DNA of 64,000 bases, taken from positions 930,001-994,000 of the forward strand of contig NZ_AP019547.1 of assembly GCF_013168275.1 (NCBI RefSeq), read 5' to 3'. The position numbers and the translations under genes are program-made. Shown here in pieces: positions 45,943 through 59,310 of the stretch. The DNA comes from Candidatus Nitrotoga sp. AM1P. GTDB lineage: Bacteria; Pseudomonadota; Gammaproteobacteria; Burkholderiales; Gallionellaceae. The notes beneath the pieces were generated by a model. It worked only from the letters and a program-made list of their open reading frames with translations. It did not search any database and was not told where the DNA came from. The first letter of the stretch is position 1. Every line of letters starts with the position of its first letter.

Positions 45943-46197
45943 TCAACCTCCGGAGATAGGCGAAAAAATGGCAATCTCATCATTCTCATTAATGGCGGCA
46001 GGCAAACCAGCAAACTCTTGATTGATCGCGCAACGCACACGGCTGTCTGCCAGCTCCTGCGCCCATATATCTCCGCGCAAACGTAGCCATGCCAGCAGAC
46101 CCGCTAGTGTCGACGCTTCTGCTGGCACATCCGCCGTTTCGCGTGACATCTTCAAATGTTCTCTCGGCCGGCCGAAATACACTAATTCAATTTTCAT
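45943..46197 (-). CDS. moaD: Molybdopterin synthase sulfur carrier subunit MoaD
   Basis: An 84-residue ubiquitin-like sulfur carrier ending in the required Gly-Gly (ENDEIAIFSPISGG). The terminal glycine is adenylated and thiocarboxylated, then gives its sulfur to MoaE's substrate. This is the functional copy of two; the second at 46500 lacks the tail. Its leader is not a normal promoter region but a decayed copy of the mobB 3' end. Confidence 0.94.
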   Translation of the reverse strand: MKIELVYFGRPREHLKMSRETADVPAEASTLAGLLAWLRLRGDIWAQELADSRVRCAINQEFAGLPAAINENDEIAIFSPISGG

Positions 46198-46499: not shown

Positions 46500-46823
46500 T
46501 CAAGAGCATGGATTCTCTCTAAAACGTGGCTCAATTGGCCTTAAGCGAGAATCATTAATCCAAAATTCTGAACAGCCATGGTAATGGGCGGTGATGGCAA
46601 TCTCGTCATTTTCGTTCAATGGTCGTGCCAGACCAGCAAACTCCTGATTAACCGCGCAACGCACACGATCTTCATTCATTTCTTGCGCCCATAATTCTCC
46701 ACGCAAACTTAGCCATGCAAGCAGGCCGGTAAGTGTCAACGACTCATCTGGAACATCTACCGTTTCCTGTGATATGTTCAAATTTTCTCTCGGCTTGCCA
46801 AAATACACTATCTCAATTTTCAT
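46500..46823 (-). CDS. MoaD paralogue lacking the C-terminal Gly-Gly
   Basis: A 107-residue frame. Residues 1-78 closely match the neighbouring MoaD (MKIEIVYFGKPRENLNISQE, VRCAVNQEFAGLARPLNEND). After EIAI the sequence departs (TAHYHGCSEFWINDSRLRPI) and runs 30 residues further with no Gly-Gly, so it cannot act as a sulfur carrier. It keeps the ATGA overlap with mobB, the ancestral gene junction. It is probably a decaying duplicate, but the open frame means a changed role cannot be ruled out. Confidence 0.75.
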   Translation of the reverse strand: MKIEIVYFGKPRENLNISQETVDVPDESLTLTGLLAWLSLRGELWAQEMNEDRVRCAVNQEFAGLARPLNENDEIAITAHYHGCSEFWINDSRLRPIEPRFRENPCS

Positions 46824-49318: not shown

Positions 49319-49845
49319 GAATTACCCCGCGGCAAGCCGCGGGGTATCAGAACAGCGCCAGTTGACGATCCTCGTGTATCTTTGTGTATACCTTACCTTG
49401 ACCACTTACATACTTCATAATCATCTCTTCGTTACCATGCTTCCCAACGCTACTTGCAAAATACCCGCTTGTCCAAAACTCTCCACCCCACAATTGCTTC
49501 TTGACCTCTGGACATCTACGAAATATCTCTCGTCCCGTTATACTCTTAATTACTCTGACCACCTCTGACACTGACTTGGTGGGTACACTTTGCACCAAAA
49601 AATGAACATGCTCTTCATCCGCACCTATCTCTAAAAATTTGATCTCATACCTCTTCTCTATCTCAATACATACGTCTCTTAACCCATCCTCTACCTTTTT
49701 ACTGAATACCATCCGACGATACTTCGCTGGACACACTATGTGCGTACAGCAATACCGTTACATTATGCTTCTTATGAATGTATTCACTCATCCATCCAGT
49801 TTAAGGCAAAGTCAAAGGCAAAGTCGCAGCAAGCCGCGAGGAATC
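49319..49845 (-). mobile_element. IS200/IS605-type element, decayed
   Basis: A single tnpA-type gene lies between two hairpins. One is perfect, ACCCCGCGGC-AA-GCCGCGGGGT (49324-49345); the other has one mismatch, TCGCAGC-AA-GCCGCGA (49824-49839). Both share the CGC-GCAAGCCGCG core. Subterminal hairpins and a lone Y1 transposase gene are the IS200 pattern. Exact ends are not defined. Confidence 0.75.
49347..49791 (-). pseudogene. IS200-type transposase TnpA, frameshifted near the N terminus
   Basis: The N terminus from ATG 49791 reads MSEYIHKKHNVTVLLY, then one extra base (near 49743) breaks the expected LLYHIVCPAKYRR. The remainder continues in the next frame as VCPAKYRRMVFSKK to LALF. Seen in that part: the HUH motif (GADEEHVHFLVQ), SITGREIFRRCPEVKKQLWG and the catalytic tyrosine region FWTSGYFASSVG. 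The shorter open frame from GTG 49736 keeps HUH and tyrosine but lacks the first strand. Probably inactive. Confidence 0.82.
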
Positions 49846-50059: not shown

Positions 50060-50578
50060 TCAGCCGTGGCGACGGCGAGCAAATCCAAGTCCCGCAAGTC
50101 CGAGTCCCAGCAACGCCAAGGTTGCAGGTTCAGGTACGGCTGCTACCGATTGAATATTGCCAGCTTGGTTAATGCTACCACTGCTTTCGAACCCAGTAGC
50201 CGGCAAGATCGGGGCAGTAAAGTTCGAACCAACGTCGACAATAGGTCCAACAACGGTGTTGTCCACTGGGTATGAGATAATGTCCGGGACCGGGAGTACT
50301 AAGGGGGGTACTGAGCTGAATGTTTCAGAGGTGTATTCCTCGCCAACAAAGATATTTTTTGAGAAACTCAAATTTCCATTAATCTTACTTTTTTGAACAT
50401 TGGTTACCCCCGCTTTACCTAGGACTCCAAAGCTGGACAAAGCGGAACCCAACAGTGGCGCAGCCGATACCGAGAATGGGCAGAAAAATAAACTAATCAC
50501 TACCCATTCCAAAGTCGACAATAACCTCAATGAGCTACCATTACGCGTACTTCTAGCATATTTAAATGGAATCTTCAT
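50060..50578 (-). CDS. PEP-CTERM sorting domain protein with a short DUF3494-like N terminus
   Basis: A 172-residue exported protein. Seen: a signal peptide (WVVISLFFCPFSVSAA), then PLLGSALSSFGVLGKAGVTN and KINGNLSFSKN, which resembles the start of ice-binding-like DUF3494 domains (LGSAxxFAVLxxxxVTNTGPTxIxGDLGVSPG); the rest of that 200-residue domain is missing. The C terminus is a clear PEP-CTERM signal: VPEPATLALLGLGLAGLGF followed by ARRRHG. XrtA encoded at 31127 should process it. A sigma-54-like promoter lies about 70 bases upstream. The protein is Ser/Thr-rich, as expected for a glycosylated target. Confidence 0.85.
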   Translation of the reverse strand: MKIPFKYARSTRNGSSLRLLSTLEWVVISLFFCPFSVSAAPLLGSALSSFGVLGKAGVTNVQKSKINGNLSFSKNIFVGEEYTSETFSSVPPLVLPVPDIISYPVDNTVVGPIVDVGSNFTAPILPATGFESSGSINQAGNIQSVAAVPEPATLALLGLGLAGLGFARRRHG

Positions 50579-50655
50579 GCTGACATCCTTGAAAGGTTAA
50601 ATAAAATGCGATCAAGCTTGATATGACAATCGAGGAGATCTACAGTATATAAAAA
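50579..50655 (-). other. Leader of the PEP-CTERM gene
   Basis: This is the part between the sigma-54-like motif and the PEP-CTERM start. It is AT-rich and contains the predicted transcription start near 50645. No other signal was recognised. Confidence 0.4.
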
Positions 50656-50671
50656 GCATTATTCATGCCAA
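50656..50671 (-). promoter_or_regulatory. Sigma-54-like promoter facing the PEP-CTERM gene
   Basis: On the minus strand TTGGCATGAATAATGCT has the -24 GG and -12 GC separated by exactly ten bases and is followed by a T-run, close to the consensus TTGGCACG-N4-TTGCT. PEP-CTERM genes are known to be under RpoN and PrsK/PrsR control in other betaproteobacteria. The start codon lies 78 bases beyond the -12 GC. Confidence 0.7.
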
Positions 50672-50723
50672 TATATTTATTCATAATTAAACAATCAGTT
50701 ATAAATAAATATATTGGCATGAA
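50662..50723. repeat. Perfect inverted repeat, 20-bp arms, 22-bp loop
   Basis: TTCATGCCAATATATTTATT (50662-50681) is the exact reverse complement of 50704-50723. The loop is 50682-50703. Each arm contains the TTGGCATGAA half of a sigma-54-like site, pointing outward, toward the PEP-CTERM gene on one side and the wzm gene on the other. Confidence 0.95.
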
Positions 50724-50729
50724 GCAAGC
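50714..50729 (+). promoter_or_regulatory. Sigma-54-like promoter facing the ABC exporter genes
   Basis: TTGGCATGAAGCAAGC keeps GG and GC ten bases apart, but the -12 element is AAGC, not TTGC, so it is weaker than its mirror. A transcript would start near 50741, 209 bases before wzm. Confidence 0.4.
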
Positions 50730-50949
50730 CATGTAAAAATTTACGACATAGTTAAAAGTAGGGGGTTCTTGGGGATTCAGTTCTTATGCACTCCGTCAAA
50801 AATAACATCGAAAAATCAAACGAATGATACCAAGTTGATGAATCAAGAGTGAACGTTTAATCGGCATGCTTCTACGATAAATCCATTACAACAACTTAAT
50901 AAAAAACCACATATTAATTACAGATACTTAATATGCATTTGGCCACAGA

Positions 50950-51744
50950 ATGAAAGACATACTCCTCACGGCATGGCGCTACCGCTATTTCATTTTCTCT
51001 TCCATTAAAACTGAGCTTAGTACAAAATTTGTACGGAGTCATTTAGGGGGACTGTGGATGATCTTAAACCCACTAGCTCAGGTACTTATATTTGCTTTTG
51101 TACTCTCAGCGGTGCTATCTGCTAAATTACCCGGTATCAATAACAAATATGCCTACTCCATCTATCTGATGGCTGGCACTTTAGGTTGGACGCTTTTTGC
51201 TGAAATTGTTAACCGCTGCCTGACCCTATTCATAGATAACGGCAACATTATCAAAAAACTGACATTTCCTAAAATAGCTTTACCTCTTATCGTTACTGGG
51301 AGCGCTTTGATCAACAACATTTTATTGTTTGTAGCCATTTTGGCAATATTTGGCATACTGGGACATCCCCCAAGTATTGCACTTATTTGGCTCCCAGCAA
51401 TCATGGTGATGACTATCGCCTTGGCACTTGGGTTAGGCCTGACCTTGGGTGTTCTAAATGTCTTTATGCGCGACATTGGACAAATCGTACCCGTAATTAT
51501 GCAATTTCTGTTCTGGTTCACCCCTATTGTATATATGGTGAACATCATTCCGGAACAATATCAAAGCTGGCTGGTGCTAAACCCCCTCATTCCCATAATC
51601 ACCAGCTATCAGGATATTTTGCTATATAACCGTGCGCCCAACTTGGCCGGATTAGGTGAGACTGCAATAATTGCGACTTTCCTACTCGCTTTTGCGCTGC
51701 TGCTGTTTCGCAAGGCCAGCCCCGAAATGGTGGATCAACTATGA
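50950..51744 (+). CDS. wzm: ABC transporter permease for polysaccharide export (Wzm-like)
   Basis: A 264-residue inner-membrane permease of the ABC-2 type with about six helices. Seen: FVRSHLGGLWMILNPLAQVL, MAGTLGWTLFAEIVNRCLTL, KKLTFPKIALPLIVTGSALI and FLFWFTPIVYMVNIIPEQYQ, hallmark segments of O-antigen and teichoic exporters. Its stop overlaps the ATPase start by four bases. With Wzt it moves a completed lipid-linked glycan to the periplasm. Confidence 0.92.
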   Translation: MKDILLTAWRYRYFIFSSIKTELSTKFVRSHLGGLWMILNPLAQVLIFAFVLSAVLSAKLPGINNKYAYSIYLMAGTLGWTLFAEIVNRCLTLFIDNGNIIKKLTFPKIALPLIVTGSALINNILLFVAILAIFGILGHPPSIALIWLPAIMVMTIALALGLGLTLGVLNVFMRDIGQIVPVIMQFLFWFTPIVYMVNIIPEQYQSWLVLNPLIPIITSYQDILLYNRAPNLAGLGETAIIATFLLAFALLLFRKASPEMVDQL

Positions 51745-53027
51745 GTGGCGAACTACATGTCAAAAATCTGGGTAAATCTTACCGCCAATGGGGCAGTGAA
51801 TGGCGGCGTGTGGTTTCCTGGTTTGTGCCAACCATTACCCCGCGTGAAGAACATTGGGTACTCAAAGACGTGAATTTTTCCATAAGCCCTGGTGAAGCCG
51901 TTGGCATAGTTGGACAAAACGGTGCAGGCAAAAGCACCCTGCTAAAACTCATTACCGGCACCACCCGCCCTACCCTGGGCCAAGTAAGATTACGTGGCCG
52001 AGTGGCGGCAATTCTGGAACTGGGCATGGGCTTCAACCCCGACCTGACGGGCCGACAGAATGCTTACCACTCCGCTGGTCTTATGGGCCACAGTCAGACT
52101 GACATAGAAAAAGCGATGCCTGAAATTGAGGCCTTTGCCGAAGTTGTCGATTATTTTGAACAACCAATGCGCACTTACTCGAGTGGTATGCAAATGCGTG
52201 TAGCATTTGCCGTAGCCACTGCTTTCAGGCCCGATATTCTTATCGTGGATGAAGCGTTATCGGTAGGCGATGCTGCCTTCCAACGTAAGTGTTTTCACCA
52301 CATCGAGGCATTTCGTGCCCAAGGAGGCACCTTACTCTTTGTCAGCCATGATATTGAAACTGTCAAACGGCTATGTGACAAGGCGATCTTTATCCATCAT
52401 GGGACAGTCAAAGCAATTGGAAAAGCGAAGACCGTCTGCGACGAATACGAGCAGACGATTTTTGGAGACGTCGCCAAGCGCACCACTATTGCCAGCCCTA
52501 CAAAATCGGTTGGATCGCTAGATTTAGGCCTTAATTCTGAAAGTATCGAAAAGCAGTATGGCGATGGCGGGGCTGTCATTTTCTCTGTCACGATAAAAAG
52601 CGCTTCAGGAGAAGCCATTAATGTCATTCCCGAGGGAGTCCCGTTTTCCGTTAACTACCAAATTCAATTTGCAAGACCCGCTCGCGGCGTCAAATTCGGA
52701 ATGATGGTGAAAACTGTCGAGGGCGTCTGTATTTACGGAACCAACACTACCAATTGTTCCATGCAAGAGTCTTTTAATGCCCAAGACGATATTTCGGTTT
52801 GCTTCGAGCTGCAAGGCAATTTGGTGCCTGGAACATATTATCTCAACGTGGGATCGACTTACGAATCAGACGATGGACCAGTGTTTCTGCATCGTAGAGT
52901 TGATTGCCTGATCTTTCGAGTAACATCCTCCGAATGTCATTACGCAGCGGGTTATGCAAATCTGTTTGCCAAGCCAGCACTCAGTCAATTCAGCGAATCA
53001 CAAAAAGTGTCAGAAGTGGTCTTATGA
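51741..53027 (+). CDS. wzt: Polysaccharide ABC transporter ATPase with C-terminal binding domain (Wzt-like)
   Basis: A 428-residue ATPase. Seen: Walker A GIVGQNGAGKSTLLKLITG, signature YSSGMQMRVAFAVATAF, Walker B ILIVDEALSVGDAAFQRKCF, and the switch histidine in LLFVSHDIETVKRLC. Residues from about 265 form a beta-rich extension (FSVTIKSASGEAINVIPEGV, LQGNLVPGTYYLNVGSTYES), like the Wzt domain that recognises a modified chain end. This suggests the exported glycan carries a terminal modification, fitting the sulfotransferase and methyltransferase that follow. Confidence 0.93.
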   Translation: MSGELHVKNLGKSYRQWGSEWRRVVSWFVPTITPREEHWVLKDVNFSISPGEAVGIVGQNGAGKSTLLKLITGTTRPTLGQVRLRGRVAAILELGMGFNPDLTGRQNAYHSAGLMGHSQTDIEKAMPEIEAFAEVVDYFEQPMRTYSSGMQMRVAFAVATAFRPDILIVDEALSVGDAAFQRKCFHHIEAFRAQGGTLLFVSHDIETVKRLCDKAIFIHHGTVKAIGKAKTVCDEYEQTIFGDVAKRTTIASPTKSVGSLDLGLNSESIEKQYGDGGAVIFSVTIKSASGEAINVIPEGVPFSVNYQIQFARPARGVKFGMMVKTVEGVCIYGTNTTNCSMQESFNAQDDISVCFELQGNLVPGTYYLNVGSTYESDDGPVFLHRRVDCLIFRVTSSECHYAAGYANLFAKPALSQFSESQKVSEVVL

Positions 53028-53713
53028 TAGCAATCATTGCGGGTATGCAGCGTAGCGGTTCTACGTTTTCCTTTAACGTTGCCAGAGAGCTTCTGGAAGC
53101 GCGTGGAGGGGTATCAGTCTTTTCCACAAATGCCTTCGATGAGGCTCTGGATGCATCAATGAACAGTAATAATCTAATCATAAAAACTCACGCACCCGAT
53201 CATTTCACCAACTTACTTTTGAAAAAGAATGCACTGCCCTGCATCTGCACTATCCGGAAACCTGAAGATGCCATCGCATCATGGATGAGAACATTCGAAT
53301 TTTCTCTCGAAGAGTCGGTAGCAGCATACGAAGGATGGCTTGCCTGGCACCGCCAGATGTCCAAGCATGTTCTAAACATTGACTATGACGAAATCGAAAG
53401 AACACCACTATTAGCTGTATTGAAGATCGGGCGTTACCTGCTTCGGGATATGAAAATAAATGAGATCATTCAGATCTGGTGGCAATTCAGAAAATCTACG
53501 GTGTACAAAAAGACTCAAGGACTTCAAAGAGAAACCCACGAAATTGTAGACATGGGTTTCAGCTATTACGACAAGAGAACCTTCTTCCACCGGCGCCATG
53601 TCTCATCATTGGAGATGACGTCAGCACATGAATTTCTTACCCAGCAGCAAATTGCTTTTGTTCGTCAGGAACTAAAGGAATATGTGGACGTCGCAGGCAA
53701 CTATCACTGGTAA
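53024..53713 (+). CDS. Sulfotransferase-like protein
   Basis: A 229-residue protein with a PAPS-type phosphate-binding loop at its N terminus (IAIIAGMQRSGSTFSFNVAR) and a second region CTIRKPEDAIASWMRTFEF, like the 3'-phosphate site of sulfotransferases. ATG 53024 overlaps the wzt stop (ATGA), a better start than the in-frame one at 52904 that lies inside wzt. The acceptor is probably the exported glycan, from context. A kinase-like P-loop protein is an alternative. Confidence 0.75.
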   Translation: MIAIIAGMQRSGSTFSFNVARELLEARGGVSVFSTNAFDEALDASMNSNNLIIKTHAPDHFTNLLLKKNALPCICTIRKPEDAIASWMRTFEFSLEESVAAYEGWLAWHRQMSKHVLNIDYDEIERTPLLAVLKIGRYLLRDMKINEIIQIWWQFRKSTVYKKTQGLQRETHEIVDMGFSYYDKRTFFHRRHVSSLEMTSAHEFLTQQQIAFVRQELKEYVDVAGNYHW

Positions 53714-53726
53714 CACGAGGTAAATA

Positions 53727-55139
53727 ATGACGTTCGTTTCTTATGCCCAAAATTTTGAAGATGTAATGCTATGGCGCGCGCTCAAACACGTGCAAAATGG
53801 TTTCTATGTAGACGTCGGCGCGCAGCACCCGGTGGTTGACTCTGTCAGTAAGGCCTTCTATGCGTATGGCTGGAGGGGTATTCACATTGAGCCTGTCCCT
53901 GAATATGCCGAACTCTTGCGCAAGGACAGGCCTGACGAGACAGTATTGCAAATTGCGTTGGCTGATACAGAAGGCACACTTGAACTTAACGTCATTCCGG
54001 ACACAGGCCTAAGCACAGCCGTAGACGCCTATGCGCAACGCCACCAAGTGGAGCGAGGTTATGAGCGTCAGCGGATACAAGTGCCGGTTCTGACGTTAAA
54101 ATCAGCATTGAAATTTTTGGTGGGCAAGGACGTTCACTGGCTGAAAATTGACGTTGAAGGGTTCGAAGAACGGGTTCTCAATGGGTGGGACACCCAAGTC
54201 TTGCGTCCATGGATAATGGTAGTTGAGGCCACCATCCCAAACTCACCCAAGACAGATTACGCGAGCTGGGACCCAATCCTCACAACAGCGGACTACCAGT
54301 TTGTTTATTTCGACGGACTCAACCGTTTTTACATAGCTAAGGAGCATGCCGAGCTTGCTGAGGCATTTTCTTGTCCGCCGAATGTTTTTGACGATACGAT
54401 ACTCGATGCAAGCTCCCACCTTTGTCGAGGTGTGATAGCGTCATATCAGGCACGACAAGAAGCGGCAGCATGGGCGCAGAAGTCTGACGCCCATGCCGCC
54501 GCAATTCGCGAGCAAGAACTTAATGCTCGATTAACCCGGGAACAGTCTGATCACACCACCAGCCAAACGCGCACTAAATGGCTTGAAAATGAGTGGAACG
54601 CGGCCAAGGCCAAAATCGATGAACTGAATCATCACAATCATAATTGGAGAACGATGGCAAATGGGCTTAACCACGAACTACAAAGTGTTTATGCCAGCAA
54701 ATCCTGGCGTATCACTTCACCGTTGCGCAAAATCATGCTGGCTACTAATCGGGGATTGACACTACTTTCACTCCAAATGCGATGGTTGCTTCGTTTGACA
54801 AAGCGCATGACCAAACCATTGGCAGTGTGGGCGATACGTCAAACCATCGCTAAACCAACCTTAAAGGCATATGCATTGAGTGTGCTCACCAAGCATCCGC
54901 ACCTTATGCAGCACCTGCGCCAGTTTGCCATGCGATCGGGATTGATTGCGGGCTCAAACATGCCGTCGCAAATCAATCAACGGGTATACCTCGGCTCAAA
55001 TCCGAAGAATGTTGCAGGAGCTTACCCACCGGATCTGTCAGAACAATCGATAAAGGAACTCCCTCCTCGCGTCGTCCGCATTTATTCGGACCTGCAAAAA
55101 GCAATTAACGTGAGGAGATCCAATGCGCATTGTAATTGA
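53727..55139 (+). CDS. FkbM family methyltransferase with coiled-coil tail
   Basis: A 470-residue protein. Residues 1-230 form an FkbM methyltransferase (YAQNFEDVMLWRALKHVQNG, FYVDVGAQHPVVDSVSKAFY, WLKIDVEGFEERVLNGWD). Residues 235-320 are a charged coiled coil, followed by YASKSWRITSPLRKIMLATN, a motif common at the end of such coils in glycan-assembly proteins, and about 130 basic residues. It probably O-methylates a sugar, perhaps as a capping mark recognised by the Wzt extension. It overlaps the next gene by 17 bases. Confidence 0.85.
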   Translation: MTFVSYAQNFEDVMLWRALKHVQNGFYVDVGAQHPVVDSVSKAFYAYGWRGIHIEPVPEYAELLRKDRPDETVLQIALADTEGTLELNVIPDTGLSTAVDAYAQRHQVERGYERQRIQVPVLTLKSALKFLVGKDVHWLKIDVEGFEERVLNGWDTQVLRPWIMVVEATIPNSPKTDYASWDPILTTADYQFVYFDGLNRFYIAKEHAELAEAFSCPPNVFDDTILDASSHLCRGVIASYQARQEAAAWAQKSDAHAAAIREQELNARLTREQSDHTTSQTRTKWLENEWNAAKAKIDELNHHNHNWRTMANGLNHELQSVYASKSWRITSPLRKIMLATNRGLTLLSLQMRWLLRLTKRMTKPLAVWAIRQTIAKPTLKAYALSVLTKHPHLMQHLRQFAMRSGLIAGSNMPSQINQRVYLGSNPKNVAGAYPPDLSEQSIKELPPRVVRIYSDLQKAINVRRSNAHCN

Positions 55140-58100
55140 CATGCAAGGTGCGCAAGGTAGCAACCGGCAACGCGGCATTGGTCGCTATACCCTCTCTATA
55201 ACTAAAGCAATCATCCGCAATCGCGGTGATCATGAGGTGCTTCTCGCCCTCAATGGGCTTTTTCCTGACACCATTGAACCGATACGCGCTGCGTTTGATG
55301 GCTTGTTGCCACAAAAAAATATCCGTGTCTGGCAGGCACCAGGGCCGAGATATGATTCAAGCAACGAAAATCATTGGCGCACTCGCGCCGCCGAACTAGT
55401 TCGTGAGGCTTTTCTAGCGAGCCTCAAGCCGGATATCATACTTGTCAATAGCCTTTTCGAAGGATCAAATGATGATGCTGCCACCAGCATTGGCATGCTG
55501 AGTCGCACCATGCCGACGGCGGTGATCCTACATGACTTGATCCCCCTGATTCACCGCCACCTCTACCTGCAAAATCCGCTGGTCGAGTCCTGGTATGAGA
55601 ATAAACTCGGCCATCTGCGCCGAGCCGACCTGCTGCTCGCTAATTCGGAATCATCTCGGCAAGAGGGTATTCGTTACCTCAGTTTTCCGCCTGAAGCATG
55701 TCTCAATATTTCTGCGGCAGCTGACCCTCAATTTCAGCCGCAGCAAATTGACTCCAAGCGAAAATCAGAAATTCGCCAGCGTTACGGGTTGCATCGCCCA
55801 TACGTGATGTACACAGGCGGTATAGATCACCGTAAAAATGTTGAAGGTCTTATTCGCGCCTACTCGAAACTGACCAAACCGCTGCGCACCAGCCACCAAC
55901 TAGCGATTGTTTGCGCTAATCTGACCCTTAGCAGTCGTGCTGCCCTGAAAAAAATCGCCAGGGAGCAGGGATTAAAGGATGATGAAGTGGTGCTGACGGA
56001 ATTTGTACCTGAAGATGATTTACTCATGCTTTACGGCTTATGCAAAACCTTTGTATTACCATCGTGGCATGAAGGCTTTGGCTTGCCAGCTTTGGAGGCG
56101 ATGTCTTGCGGGTGTGCAGTAATTGGCTCCAACACTTCCAGCCTACCAGAAGTGATTGGCCGCGATGACGCTCTATTTGACCCGATGGACGATATGACCA
56201 TCGCTGAAAAGCTTACGCAGGTGCTGACTGACGAAAAATTCCGATTAGAATTAGAACAACACGGCCTGGAACAGGCCAAGCTATTTTCATGGGATACCAC
56301 TGCGCAACGGGCAATTGCCGCCTTTGAAAACCTTCATACGAGACAATCTTCCGATGCTTCAGTGTTGTGCCCCCTTCCCTGCCGGCCCAAACTGGCGTAT
56401 GTCTCGCCATTGCCACCAGTGCGTAGCGGTATCAGTGATTATAGCGCCGAACTTCTGCCCGAGCTTGCACGCCATTACGATATTGACGTGATCGTGGCGC
56501 AAGACTCCGTGTCCGTACCTTGGATCGAGGCCAACTGCCCGATTCATAGTGTGGAATGGTTCAAGACTAACGCAAACCGTTACGATCGGGTGCTCTATCA
56601 TTTTGGCAACAACACCTTTCATCAGCACATGTTTAACTTGCTGGAAGAAGTGCCGGGTGTCGTCACTCTGCATGATTTTTTCCTATCTGGTGTAGTAGGT
56701 CACATGCATTTTAGTGGTCAGGAGTCTGTTTCCTGGGTTCAAGCTCTCTATCAAAACCACGGCTATGCGGCCATGCAACAACATTTCAGTACCTCAGATA
56801 CGGCGGAAGTACCTTGGCGCTATCCGTGCAATTTAGGTGTACTTCAGACTGCCCTTGGAGTAGTTGTACACTCCAAAAACTCCATACGATTGGCTGGCCA
56901 GTGGATCGACGAAAAAGCGGCTGATGACTGGGCGGTGGTTCCGCTCCTTCGCATTCCAGAATTTGGTATTGATCGAACTAAAGCACGCCGCTTGCTTGGC
57001 TTTGGCAATGATGATTTTGTGGTGTGTAGTTTTGGTTTACTCGGGATGACCAAGCTGAACCATCGATTGCTCGACGCTTGGCTAACCTCGACTTTAGCGA
57101 AGAATATCGATTGTATACTGGTATTCGTCGGCGAGAATCAGGGCGGTGTGTATGGGGCAGAACTGGTCACCCGGATCCGCCAAAGTGGCTTAAGTAAGCG
57201 TATTCGCATTACCGGCTGGACAGACACTGCCACCTTCCGCCATTACCTTGCGGCGGCCGATGCAGGGGTGCAATTGCGCACACTCTCCCGTGGCGAAACG
57301 TCGGCAACAGTACTGGATTGTATGAATTACGGCCTTCCCACTATCGTGAATATTAACGGCAGCATGGCAGACCTGCCCGATGACGGAGTATGGAAGCTGT
57401 CAGACGAATTTGATGATGCGGATCTGGTGGGGGCACTGGAAACCCTGTGGCGTGACCCTGCTCGCCGACAGCAATTGGGCGCGAGGGCGAGAGAGATCAT
57501 TCTTACGCATCATGCTCCACGGACCTGTGCCGACCAGTACGCCCAGGCGATCGAGTCTATATATCAGACAGCGCTTACCAACGAGTCCGCTTTAGTCCGC
57601 GCATTGTCCCACATTGAACCGGCGCCGACAGAAGCTCCAGCGTGGATCTCTGTGGCAGAAGCAACGGTCCTTTCCATATCACCCCGGCATGTTCCCCGTC
57701 AGTTATTAATTGACATCTCGGAACTGGTTCAACGCGATTCAAAAAGTGGTATTCAACGAGCTGTGCGCAGCATTCTAAACGAATTACTTGCCAATCCACC
57801 CGCTGGCTACCGGGTGGAACCCGTTTATGCCACACCTGATCACAGCTACCGCTATGCCCGGCGCTTCACTTTGCGCTTCCTCAACTGCCCCGAATCGATC
57901 CTGACAGATGATCCAATCGAATTCCGAGCTGGTGACCTGTTTCTGGGGCTGGACTTACAGCCTCAAGTAGTGCCGTCTCAACAGGCCTTTTATAAGCAGT
58001 TGCGCAACTACGGTATACAGGTTCAATTCGTAGTATTTGATCTTTTGCCTATTATTTTGCCCAAAGCTTTCCCTGAGTGGGCGACAAAAATACATCAAGA

Positions 58101-58869
58101 CTGGCTGCAAGTAGTGACTGAAAGTGATGGTGCTATTTGCATCTCCAAAGCCGTGGCTGACGAGCTAACAGACTGGCTCAAGGCGAACGGATTAGCACGT
58201 CAACGACCATTCATGATTGACTGGTTTCATTTGGGAGGGAACATAGAAGCATCATCCCCATCCAAAGGTGTGCCAGACAATGCAAGGTTAGTGTTAAGTC
58301 AACTAGCGAATCGTCCGAGCTTCTTGATGGTCGGCACCTTGGAACCCCGTAAAGGTTATATACAGGCACTTGCTGCATTTGAAAAAATATGGGCGGAAAA
58401 CGTAGATGTGAATTTGGTGATTGTTGGCAAACAAGGTTGGATGATGGAATCGCTGGTAGATCGTCTGCGCCAACATCCCGAACTGGGGAAGCGCCTATTT
58501 TGGCTAGATGGCATCAGCGACGAATACCTGGAAAAAATTTATACAGCCAGCACGTGCTTAATTGCTGCCAGCGCGGGCGAAGGCTTCGGACTACCGCTCA
58601 TCGAAGCTGCCCAGCATAAAAAACCCATAATTGCGCGAGATATTCCCGTGTTCCGCGAAGTGGCAGGTGAACACGCATTTTATTTTAGTGGGCTTGCCCC
58701 CCTTGCCCTGGCGAGGGCGATTAGTGAATGGTTAACATTAAACGCCAATGGATTGGCACCTCAATCAATTGGCATGTCCTGGCTCACCTGGCAGCAAAGT
58801 GCTGAGCAATTGCTTACAAGAGTTTTAACGAGCCGCAACCAGCAGGTTTTACAAGAGTCAGCCGTATAA
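55123..58869 (+). CDS. Three-domain glycosyltransferase
   Basis: A 1248-residue protein containing three GT4-like (GT-B) modules. Module 1 (about 1-410): MRIVIDMQGAQGSNRQRGIG, GGIDHRKNVEGLIRAYSKL and HEGFGLPALEAMSCGCAVIG. Module 2 (about 425-825): LAYVSPLPPVRSGISDYSAE, LHDFFLSGVVGHMHF and RGETSATVLDCMNYGLPTIV, with a less canonical donor site. Module 3 (about 870-1245): LLIDISELVQRDSKSGIQRA, FLMVGTLEPRKGYIQALAAF and GEGFGLPLIEAAQHKKPIIA. No membrane segment is seen. It could add several sugars in order, or act as a processive chain-building enzyme for the ABC-exported glycan. It starts inside the FkbM gene. Confidence 0.9.
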   Translation: MRIVIDMQGAQGSNRQRGIGRYTLSITKAIIRNRGDHEVLLALNGLFPDTIEPIRAAFDGLLPQKNIRVWQAPGPRYDSSNENHWRTRAAELVREAFLASLKPDIILVNSLFEGSNDDAATSIGMLSRTMPTAVILHDLIPLIHRHLYLQNPLVESWYENKLGHLRRADLLLANSESSRQEGIRYLSFPPEACLNISAAADPQFQPQQIDSKRKSEIRQRYGLHRPYVMYTGGIDHRKNVEGLIRAYSKLTKPLRTSHQLAIVCANLTLSSRAALKKIAREQGLKDDEVVLTEFVPEDDLLMLYGLCKTFVLPSWHEGFGLPALEAMSCGCAVIGSNTSSLPEVIGRDDALFDPMDDMTIAEKLTQVLTDEKFRLELEQHGLEQAKLFSWDTTAQRAIAAFENLHTRQSSDASVLCPLPCRPKLAYVSPLPPVRSGISDYSAELLPELARHYDIDVIVAQDSVSVPWIEANCPIHSVEWFKTNANRYDRVLYHFGNNTFHQHMFNLLEEVPGVVTLHDFFLSGVVGHMHFSGQESVSWVQALYQNHGYAAMQQHFSTSDTAEVPWRYPCNLGVLQTALGVVVHSKNSIRLAGQWIDEKAADDWAVVPLLRIPEFGIDRTKARRLLGFGNDDFVVCSFGLLGMTKLNHRLLDAWLTSTLAKNIDCILVFVGENQGGVYGAELVTRIRQSGLSKRIRITGWTDTATFRHYLAAADAGVQLRTLSRGETSATVLDCMNYGLPTIVNINGSMADLPDDGVWKLSDEFDDADLVGALETLWRDPARRQQLGARAREIILTHHAPRTCADQYAQAIESIYQTALTNESALVRALSHIEPAPTEAPAWISVAEATVLSISPRHVPRQLLIDISELVQRDSKSGIQRAVRSILNELLANPPAGYRVEPVYATPDHSYRYARRFTLRFLNCPESILTDDPIEFRAGDLFLGLDLQPQVVPSQQAFYKQLRNYGIQVQFVVFDLLPIILPKAFPEWATKIHQDWLQVVTESDGAICISKAVADELTDWLKANGLARQRPFMIDWFHLGGNIEASSPSKGVPDNARLVLSQLANRPSFLMVGTLEPRKGYIQALAAFEKIWAENVDVNLVIVGKQGWMMESLVDRLRQHPELGKRLFWLDGISDEYLEKIYTASTCLIAASAGEGFGLPLIEAAQHKKPIIARDIPVFREVAGEHAFYFSGLAPLALARAISEWLTLNANGLAPQSIGMSWLTWQQSAEQLLTRVLTSRNQQVLQESAV

Positions 58870-59310
58870 ATCTATTGGTGAATTCAATTTATCTCGTGTC
58901 CTAATACCGTGTGATAGCGTGCAGACGACTAGTAGATTGATCATTAAAATTACACCGTAAATTTAGTCATTTTGACTTAATGTAAGTATATGTAATAATA
59001 CAATAAATTTATTATTTATAATAGTTTTTGCGTAGTTTATACTTGTATTTCAAACATAGGAGGCTAACAAAATTATGCTATTCTTTAATCTAAATTTATA
59101 GACGAAAATTTACGTAAATTTTTAGTTTCTCTAATTAATAATTTCATAGATACTTTTAACTGTGTATTTTTAACATACAGGAAATATTACCTTGCAATAG
59201 AAATTTATTACAATTTTCAGCCCAGTTATTGGCTTACTCAAACTACACTTATATAAATTCGGATGTGGAAACACCAAATAGCTCACCTCTAAACAAATCA
59301 GGAGACCAAC
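58870..59310. other. AT-rich intergenic region before the beta-helix genes
   Basis: 441 strongly AT-rich bases with no gene or RNA recognised. GGAGA at 59301-59305 is the ribosome site of the next gene. Long A/T runs could carry promoters, but none is clear enough to list. No GG-N10-GC motif of good quality was found. Confidence 0.5.

Follow-up and report, generated by a model that had tools for sequence, protein, structure and literature searches.

A predicted PrsR/sigma-54 promoter unit with a palindromic spacer upstream of a PEP-CTERM gene in Candidatus Nitrotoga

The intergenic region and its palindrome

The window, by which we mean the whole stretch of 64,000 nucleotides that was analysed, comes from Candidatus Nitrotoga, a genus of nitrite oxidizers, and contains a 371-nt intergenic region (50579-50949) that separates a PEP-CTERM protein gene on the minus strand from a wzm-like exporter gene on the plus strand. 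The PEP-CTERM gene (50060-50578, minus strand), which encodes 172 aa and is the predicted target of the promoter described below, was recognized by its signal (TIGR02595, 29.1 bits, cut-off 16); its product has orthologues in the genus at 77, 75 and 52% identity and scored 50.7 bits against the NCBIfam model floc_PepA, below the 80-bit cut-off. On the plus strand lie genes for a wzm-like ABC-2 exporter permease (50950-51744) and a wzt-like ABC exporter ATPase (51741-53027), so that both flanks are of the kind named in a preliminary description of the locus. Further out, an IS200/IS605 family transposase gene (49347-49736; 110.2 bits, cut-off 55), accompanied by a hairpin at 49323-49346, separates pduO from the PEP-CTERM gene; in the related genome SPKER the PEP-CTERM module has the opposite orientation relative to pduO. 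Two similar small open reading frames at 45943-46197 and 46500-46823 resemble, by eye, a duplicated sulphur carrier of the MoaD/ThiS type, and an open reading frame of 1248 aa at 55123-58869 contains three group 1 glycosyltransferase stretches.

Within the intergenic region we found the perfect 20-bp palindrome of the preliminary description, with its arms at exactly the positions given there, 50662-50681 and 50704-50723. The left arm includes the minus-strand promoter's -24 element, and the right arm lies between the PrsR box and the IHF-like site. Extended inward, the palindrome has 25-nt, AT-rich arms that are 96% complementary and enclose a 12-nt loop. Its length exceeds chance: no other perfect inverted repeat in the window (loops of up to 80 nt) is as long, five in all having arms of at least 11 bp and the runner-up reaching 14 bp, and when the 371-nt region was shuffled 300 times with its dinucleotides preserved, the longest inverted repeat was 14 bp, with a mean of 7.7. 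Exact matches to TTGGCATGAA occur in the window only at the two palindrome arms, while nine places match with one mismatch against 8.66 expected, which is chance level. The preliminary description had allowed that the palindrome might be scattered through the genome as a mobile repeat; a 106-base query around it, searched against the whole genome of 3,008,303 bases, found no place but its own, where it matched in both orientations, and a mobile or dispersed palindromic repeat is ruled out by this single place in 3.0 Mb.

The leftward promoter, its PrsR box and their conservation

On the minus strand, a sigma-54 -24/-12 promoter, TTGGCATGAATAATGCT, lies at 50655-50671 with a predicted start near 50644, 77 nt separating the site from the ATG of the PEP-CTERM gene. 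With an approximate scoring matrix, on which all sigma-54 scores given here rest, this site scored 16.8, the highest value among the 127,968 positions of the window, the next best reaching 14.5. The pattern TTGGCAYGN5TGC gave 14 matches in the genome compared with one for its reversed control. The sigma-54 promoter that had been proposed to face the PEP-CTERM gene thus has support in the sequence.

Upstream of this site, at 50732-50748 on the minus strand, we identified a 17-nt PrsR (PEP-CTERM) box, TGTCGTAAATTTTTACA, which ends in TTTTTACA and is separated from the sigma-54 site by a spacer of 61 nt. Haft 2006 reported that proteobacterial PEP-CTERM genes are preceded by a 17-nt motif 1 ending in TTTACA, that the spacer between it and motif 2, a sigma-54 motif, is 62.8 nt (sd 10.6), and that motif 2 lies 71 nt (sd 38.5) from the start codon (PMC1569441, in the portion of the article available). 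Judged against that published text description, and with motif 1 expected 32-92 nt upstream of motif 2, the box fits motif 1. The genome encodes PrsR (739.9 bits, cut-off 502.6), with the PrsK gene adjoining the PrsR gene (667.8 bits, cut-off 300), as well as RpoN (448.4 bits, cut-off 277.35) and IHF-alpha (151 bits, cut-off 120.25). The leftward promoter combines motif 1, motif 2 and both distances of the Haft 2006 description (PMC1569441), in a genome with PrsR and PrsK above their cut-offs, and as far as sequence goes the minus side has all the parts of a PrsR promoter. PrsK, PrsR and RpoN had been put forward earlier as a fitting control system, which agrees with the presence of the box and of all three genes.

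To follow the promoter across genomes we used an orthologue search, which gave matches in 23 of 61 genomes, most of them over the C-terminal signal only, and from which eight loci (L033-L039 and L050) were taken for promoter comparison. In seven of these, our own included, the box stands roughly 170 nt ahead of the gene and is accompanied by a sigma-54 site, which the pattern detected in six and which was recognized by eye in one, L037 (TTGGTATGAATATTGCT); the eighth, L050, a partial orthologue match, is without the box. Searching the genus for the box followed by 45-75 bases and a sigma-54 site returned 22 places in 12 of 19 genomes, compared with none for the reversed control. Twenty of the 22 units stand before an open reading frame with a PEP-CTERM-like tail; the other two, L102, which has no intact downstream frame, and L106, whose downstream frame has no such tail, were kept in the count. 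L106 (G009:C37:11890-11986) may represent another PrsR target.

Spacers in the 22 units measured 61-65 nt in 19 cases and 53-54 nt in three. In our own genome, five of eight PEP-CTERM loci carry the box, and three sister loci with a sigma-54 site have spacers of 63, 93 and 95 nt, the last two falling outside the 45-75 range of the genus pattern. At a further locus (L006) the box is present but the nearest candidate, an AG-for-GG site scoring 12.9, lies about 130 nt beyond it, outside the spacing limit, and at three PEP-CTERM loci (L007, L009 and L010) the pattern found no box. These steps, 53-54, 61-65 and 93-95, would be consistent with helical phasing in whole turns; such phased spacings, the genus box pattern TGTCGnnAnnnTTTACA and the putative IHF site described next can be tested.

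The loop of the palindrome contains an IHF-like site, AAACAATCAGTTA, at 50689-50701 on the plus strand, which agrees at 8 of 9 positions with what we take to be the IHF consensus. Over the 22 genus spacers, the matches to this consensus summed to 174, compared with 158.2 (sd 2.7) in shuffled spacers, and none of 300 shuffles reached 174. The stretch 50689-50701 is a candidate IHF site between the PrsR box and the promoter. The box and the IHF-like site, neither of which the preliminary description had named, complete the predicted promoter unit. By analogy with the known family, the parts whose order, spacing and conservation we observed would act in the following way: PrsK would phosphorylate PrsR, which would then bind the box at 50732-50748; IHF would bend the spacer at 50689-50701; and PrsR would contact and open the sigma-54 polymerase held at 50655-50671, giving transcription that starts near 50644 and proceeds leftward through the PEP-CTERM gene.

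Compared with the regions described by Haft 2006, the locus shares the 17-nt box ending in TTTACA, a spacer near 63 nt, the -24 GG and -12 GC, a short leader, the PEP-CTERM gene and the PrsK/PrsR pair; it differs in having, within the spacer, a perfect 20-bp palindrome and an IHF-like site enclosed by it, neither of which is mentioned in the available text, where the term 'palindrom' has no occurrence (PMC1569441). The pepA gene of Aquincola tertiaricarbonis RN12 likewise is a PEP-CTERM gene behind -24/-12 motifs, with a mapped start after them and rpoN1-dependent transcription; RpoN dependence was measured there and is predicted here, and the sections of that article available describe no palindrome (PMC9850573). 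A literature search, mostly outside subscription journals, returned no description of a palindrome or an IHF site in a PEP-CTERM promoter. Our results indicate that Candidatus Nitrotoga shares the PrsR/sigma-54 control of PEP-CTERM genes that has been predicted for other Proteobacteria.

Origin and possible activity of the symmetry

Having a predicted unit that recurs in the genus, we asked how often its symmetry recurs. A perfect 20-bp repeat is present in one of the 22 units, that of the window, and the other 21 have 6-10 bp. Aligned on the same axis, the arms pair at 20 of 20 positions in our own genome, at 15 in SPKER, the nearest relative, and at 11 in LAW, and pairing in LAW is, from this comparison, at background, like that of unrelated promoters. 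Across the 19 further units, the segment most complementary to the promoter arm pairs with it at 10-13 of 20 positions, including the G009 orthologue (L103), in which 12 of 20 are paired at the same distance from the box. When any axis was allowed, the best 20-nt arms paired at 12-16 of 20 positions in the other 21 units, so that the value in SPKER is notable only for its shared axis.

All five unpaired columns of SPKER coincide with those at which the two species have different arm sequences, three on one side of the palindrome and two on the opposite side. This pattern fits either homogenisation of the arms by template switching or decay of an older, better repeat. Most likely, template switching used one arm of an older, imperfect repeat as the model for the other, or an older near-perfect repeat has been decaying in the relatives. 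Mutation of quasipalindromes by template switching has been reported in E. coli and yeast (PMC7202029 and PMC8604942, as far as their accessible text goes); in contrast to those cases, the one in the window is probable from a comparison of three genomes only, in which LAW as the outgroup does not settle the direction. The partial pairing in SPKER means that the symmetry is not wholly new, and a mild selective role is conceivable. On either account of the symmetry, the -24 lookalike on the plus strand would be a mirror copy of the real -24 element, and an eye-catching symmetrical promoter can thus be the reflection left by a spacer mutation.

We also looked for an inverted -24 design as a recurrent arrangement in 399 evenly drawn genomes of the order, two of them from this genus, our own included. 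Among the matches listed there were 60 places in 49 genomes compared with 43 reversed controls, which is near control level, and when 31 of the matches (30 loci) were re-read, only that of the window had arms longer than 10 bp or a nearby PrsR box. A recurrent inverted -24 design was rejected on this ground, the other 30 re-read matches being unlike the window's.

Taken together, we consider that 50655-50748 holds the parts of a PrsR-box/IHF-like/sigma-54 unit predicted to serve the PEP-CTERM gene only, and that the palindrome is probably the outcome of mutation in the spacer of this lineage and not a pair of promoters, a reading to which we assign a probability of roughly 0.8. The symmetry would then most likely be a property of the spacer, privately acquired, and not the mark of two designed promoters.

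The palindrome could nevertheless act on the promoter in which it lies. It is upstream of the predicted leftward start and would hence lie outside the transcript; an RNA hairpin or terminator in the leftward transcript was rejected on this ground, and any effect would be exerted as DNA. One such effect would be a cruciform, driven by supercoiling, that sequesters both the -24 element and the IHF-like site and shuts the promoter independently of PrsR. The AT-rich, nearly complementary 25-nt arms with their 12-nt loop would suit such a structure, as would a DNA fold z-score of -7.3, none of 200 shuffles folding as well. There is also a precedent in the ospC gene of Borrelia burgdorferi, where an inverted repeat upstream of a surface-protein promoter, as here, must be present for supercoiling, temperature and pH to bring about induction, and its pairing potential outweighs its sequence; that repeat was tested for function whereas the window is known from sequence, and the available text names no sigma-54, PrsR or IHF (PMC3700930). 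Against a cruciform stands the comparison within the genus, in which none of the other 21 units has a long perfect repeat and LAW pairs at background, and we regard it as unlikely. Were it true, DNA topology would veto PrsR and constitute a second, independent input to a single PEP-CTERM gene beside a swapping glycan-export cassette.

The plus-strand site and the divergent exporter genes

The preliminary description had seen in the palindrome two divergent sigma-54 promoters that place the PEP-CTERM gene and the wzm/wzt exporter under one common switch. The second of these would be the GG-N10-GC site TTGGCATGAAGCAAGCC at 50714-50730 on the plus strand, which is the sole plus-strand site scoring at least 9 in 50579-50949. 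It scored 11.8 with the same approximate matrix, with AAGC at -12 and with 15 higher sites listed among the 127,968 positions, and its predicted start, near 50742, falls within the PrsR box. No activator box was found upstream of it, the one box of the window being on the wrong side. In the two nearest relatives the -24 GG of this site is absent, the SPKER equivalent scoring 5.2 and that of LAW giving a negative score.

Comparison of the neighbouring genes pointed the same way. Matches to the exporter permease were found in 14 of 18 other genomes of the genus, at no more than 32% identity, and DNA homology ends at 50750 against the SPKER locus (12.5 kb) and at 50757 against the LAW locus, 2-9 bp past the box. 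A conserved link to wzm was rejected on these two grounds. The neighbourhood itself does recur, which speaks for a joint switch: in LAW, a different GT2-wzm-wzt operon diverges from the PEP-CTERM gene, and an epimerase gene occupies that position in G003. In neither genome, however, does a sigma-54 site scoring at least 9 face the divergent glycan gene, and the neighbourhood thus recurs while the second promoter does not. By these sequence tests we judge the plus-strand site not to be a promoter, and the exporter is, as far as the genomes compared indicate, a lineage-specific neighbour, the wzm/wzt and glycosyltransferase cassette appearing to have been swapped in beside the PEP-CTERM module. 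Hence the proposed promoter toward wzm/wzt did not hold up, and with a best exporter match of 32% in the genus and a long palindrome in one of 22 units, a joint switch by two divergent promoters is very unlikely. The apparent swap concerns 50751-59290, which finds no counterpart at the DNA level in the 12.5-kb SPKER and LAW loci, though both of its flanks match.

It is highly improbable that an additional dimeric regulator uses the palindrome as its operator to adjust the leftward promoter alone. The symmetry partly shared with SPKER on the same axis would accord with an operator, whereas the arms are AT-rich and have no repeat elsewhere in the genome, and usual operators are shorter than these arms. 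Finally, it is scarcely credible that the leftward promoter belongs to the sigma-70 type and resembles a sigma-54 site by accident, for although a sigma-70-like pair, TTGGCA-16-TATACT (10/12), overlaps the sigma-54 site on the minus strand, its TATACT segment varies across seven aligned loci that preserve both the -24/-12 bases and the PrsR box.

Related sequences were also seen at other loci, which we record beside the predicted PrsR/sigma-54 unit. Upstream of a boxless PEP-CTERM gene in our own genome (L010/L012; 67412, minus strand) lies a strong sigma-54-like site, TTGGCATGTAATTTGCT, which scored 18.7 at L010 with the approximate matrix. Two further loci of this genome (L011 and L013, at 40431 and 125135) have an identical sigma-54-like sequence, TTGGCACGGAAGCTGC, and LAW carries a second PrsR-type box, TGTCGGTTATTTTTACA, at L084:9491 on the minus strand.
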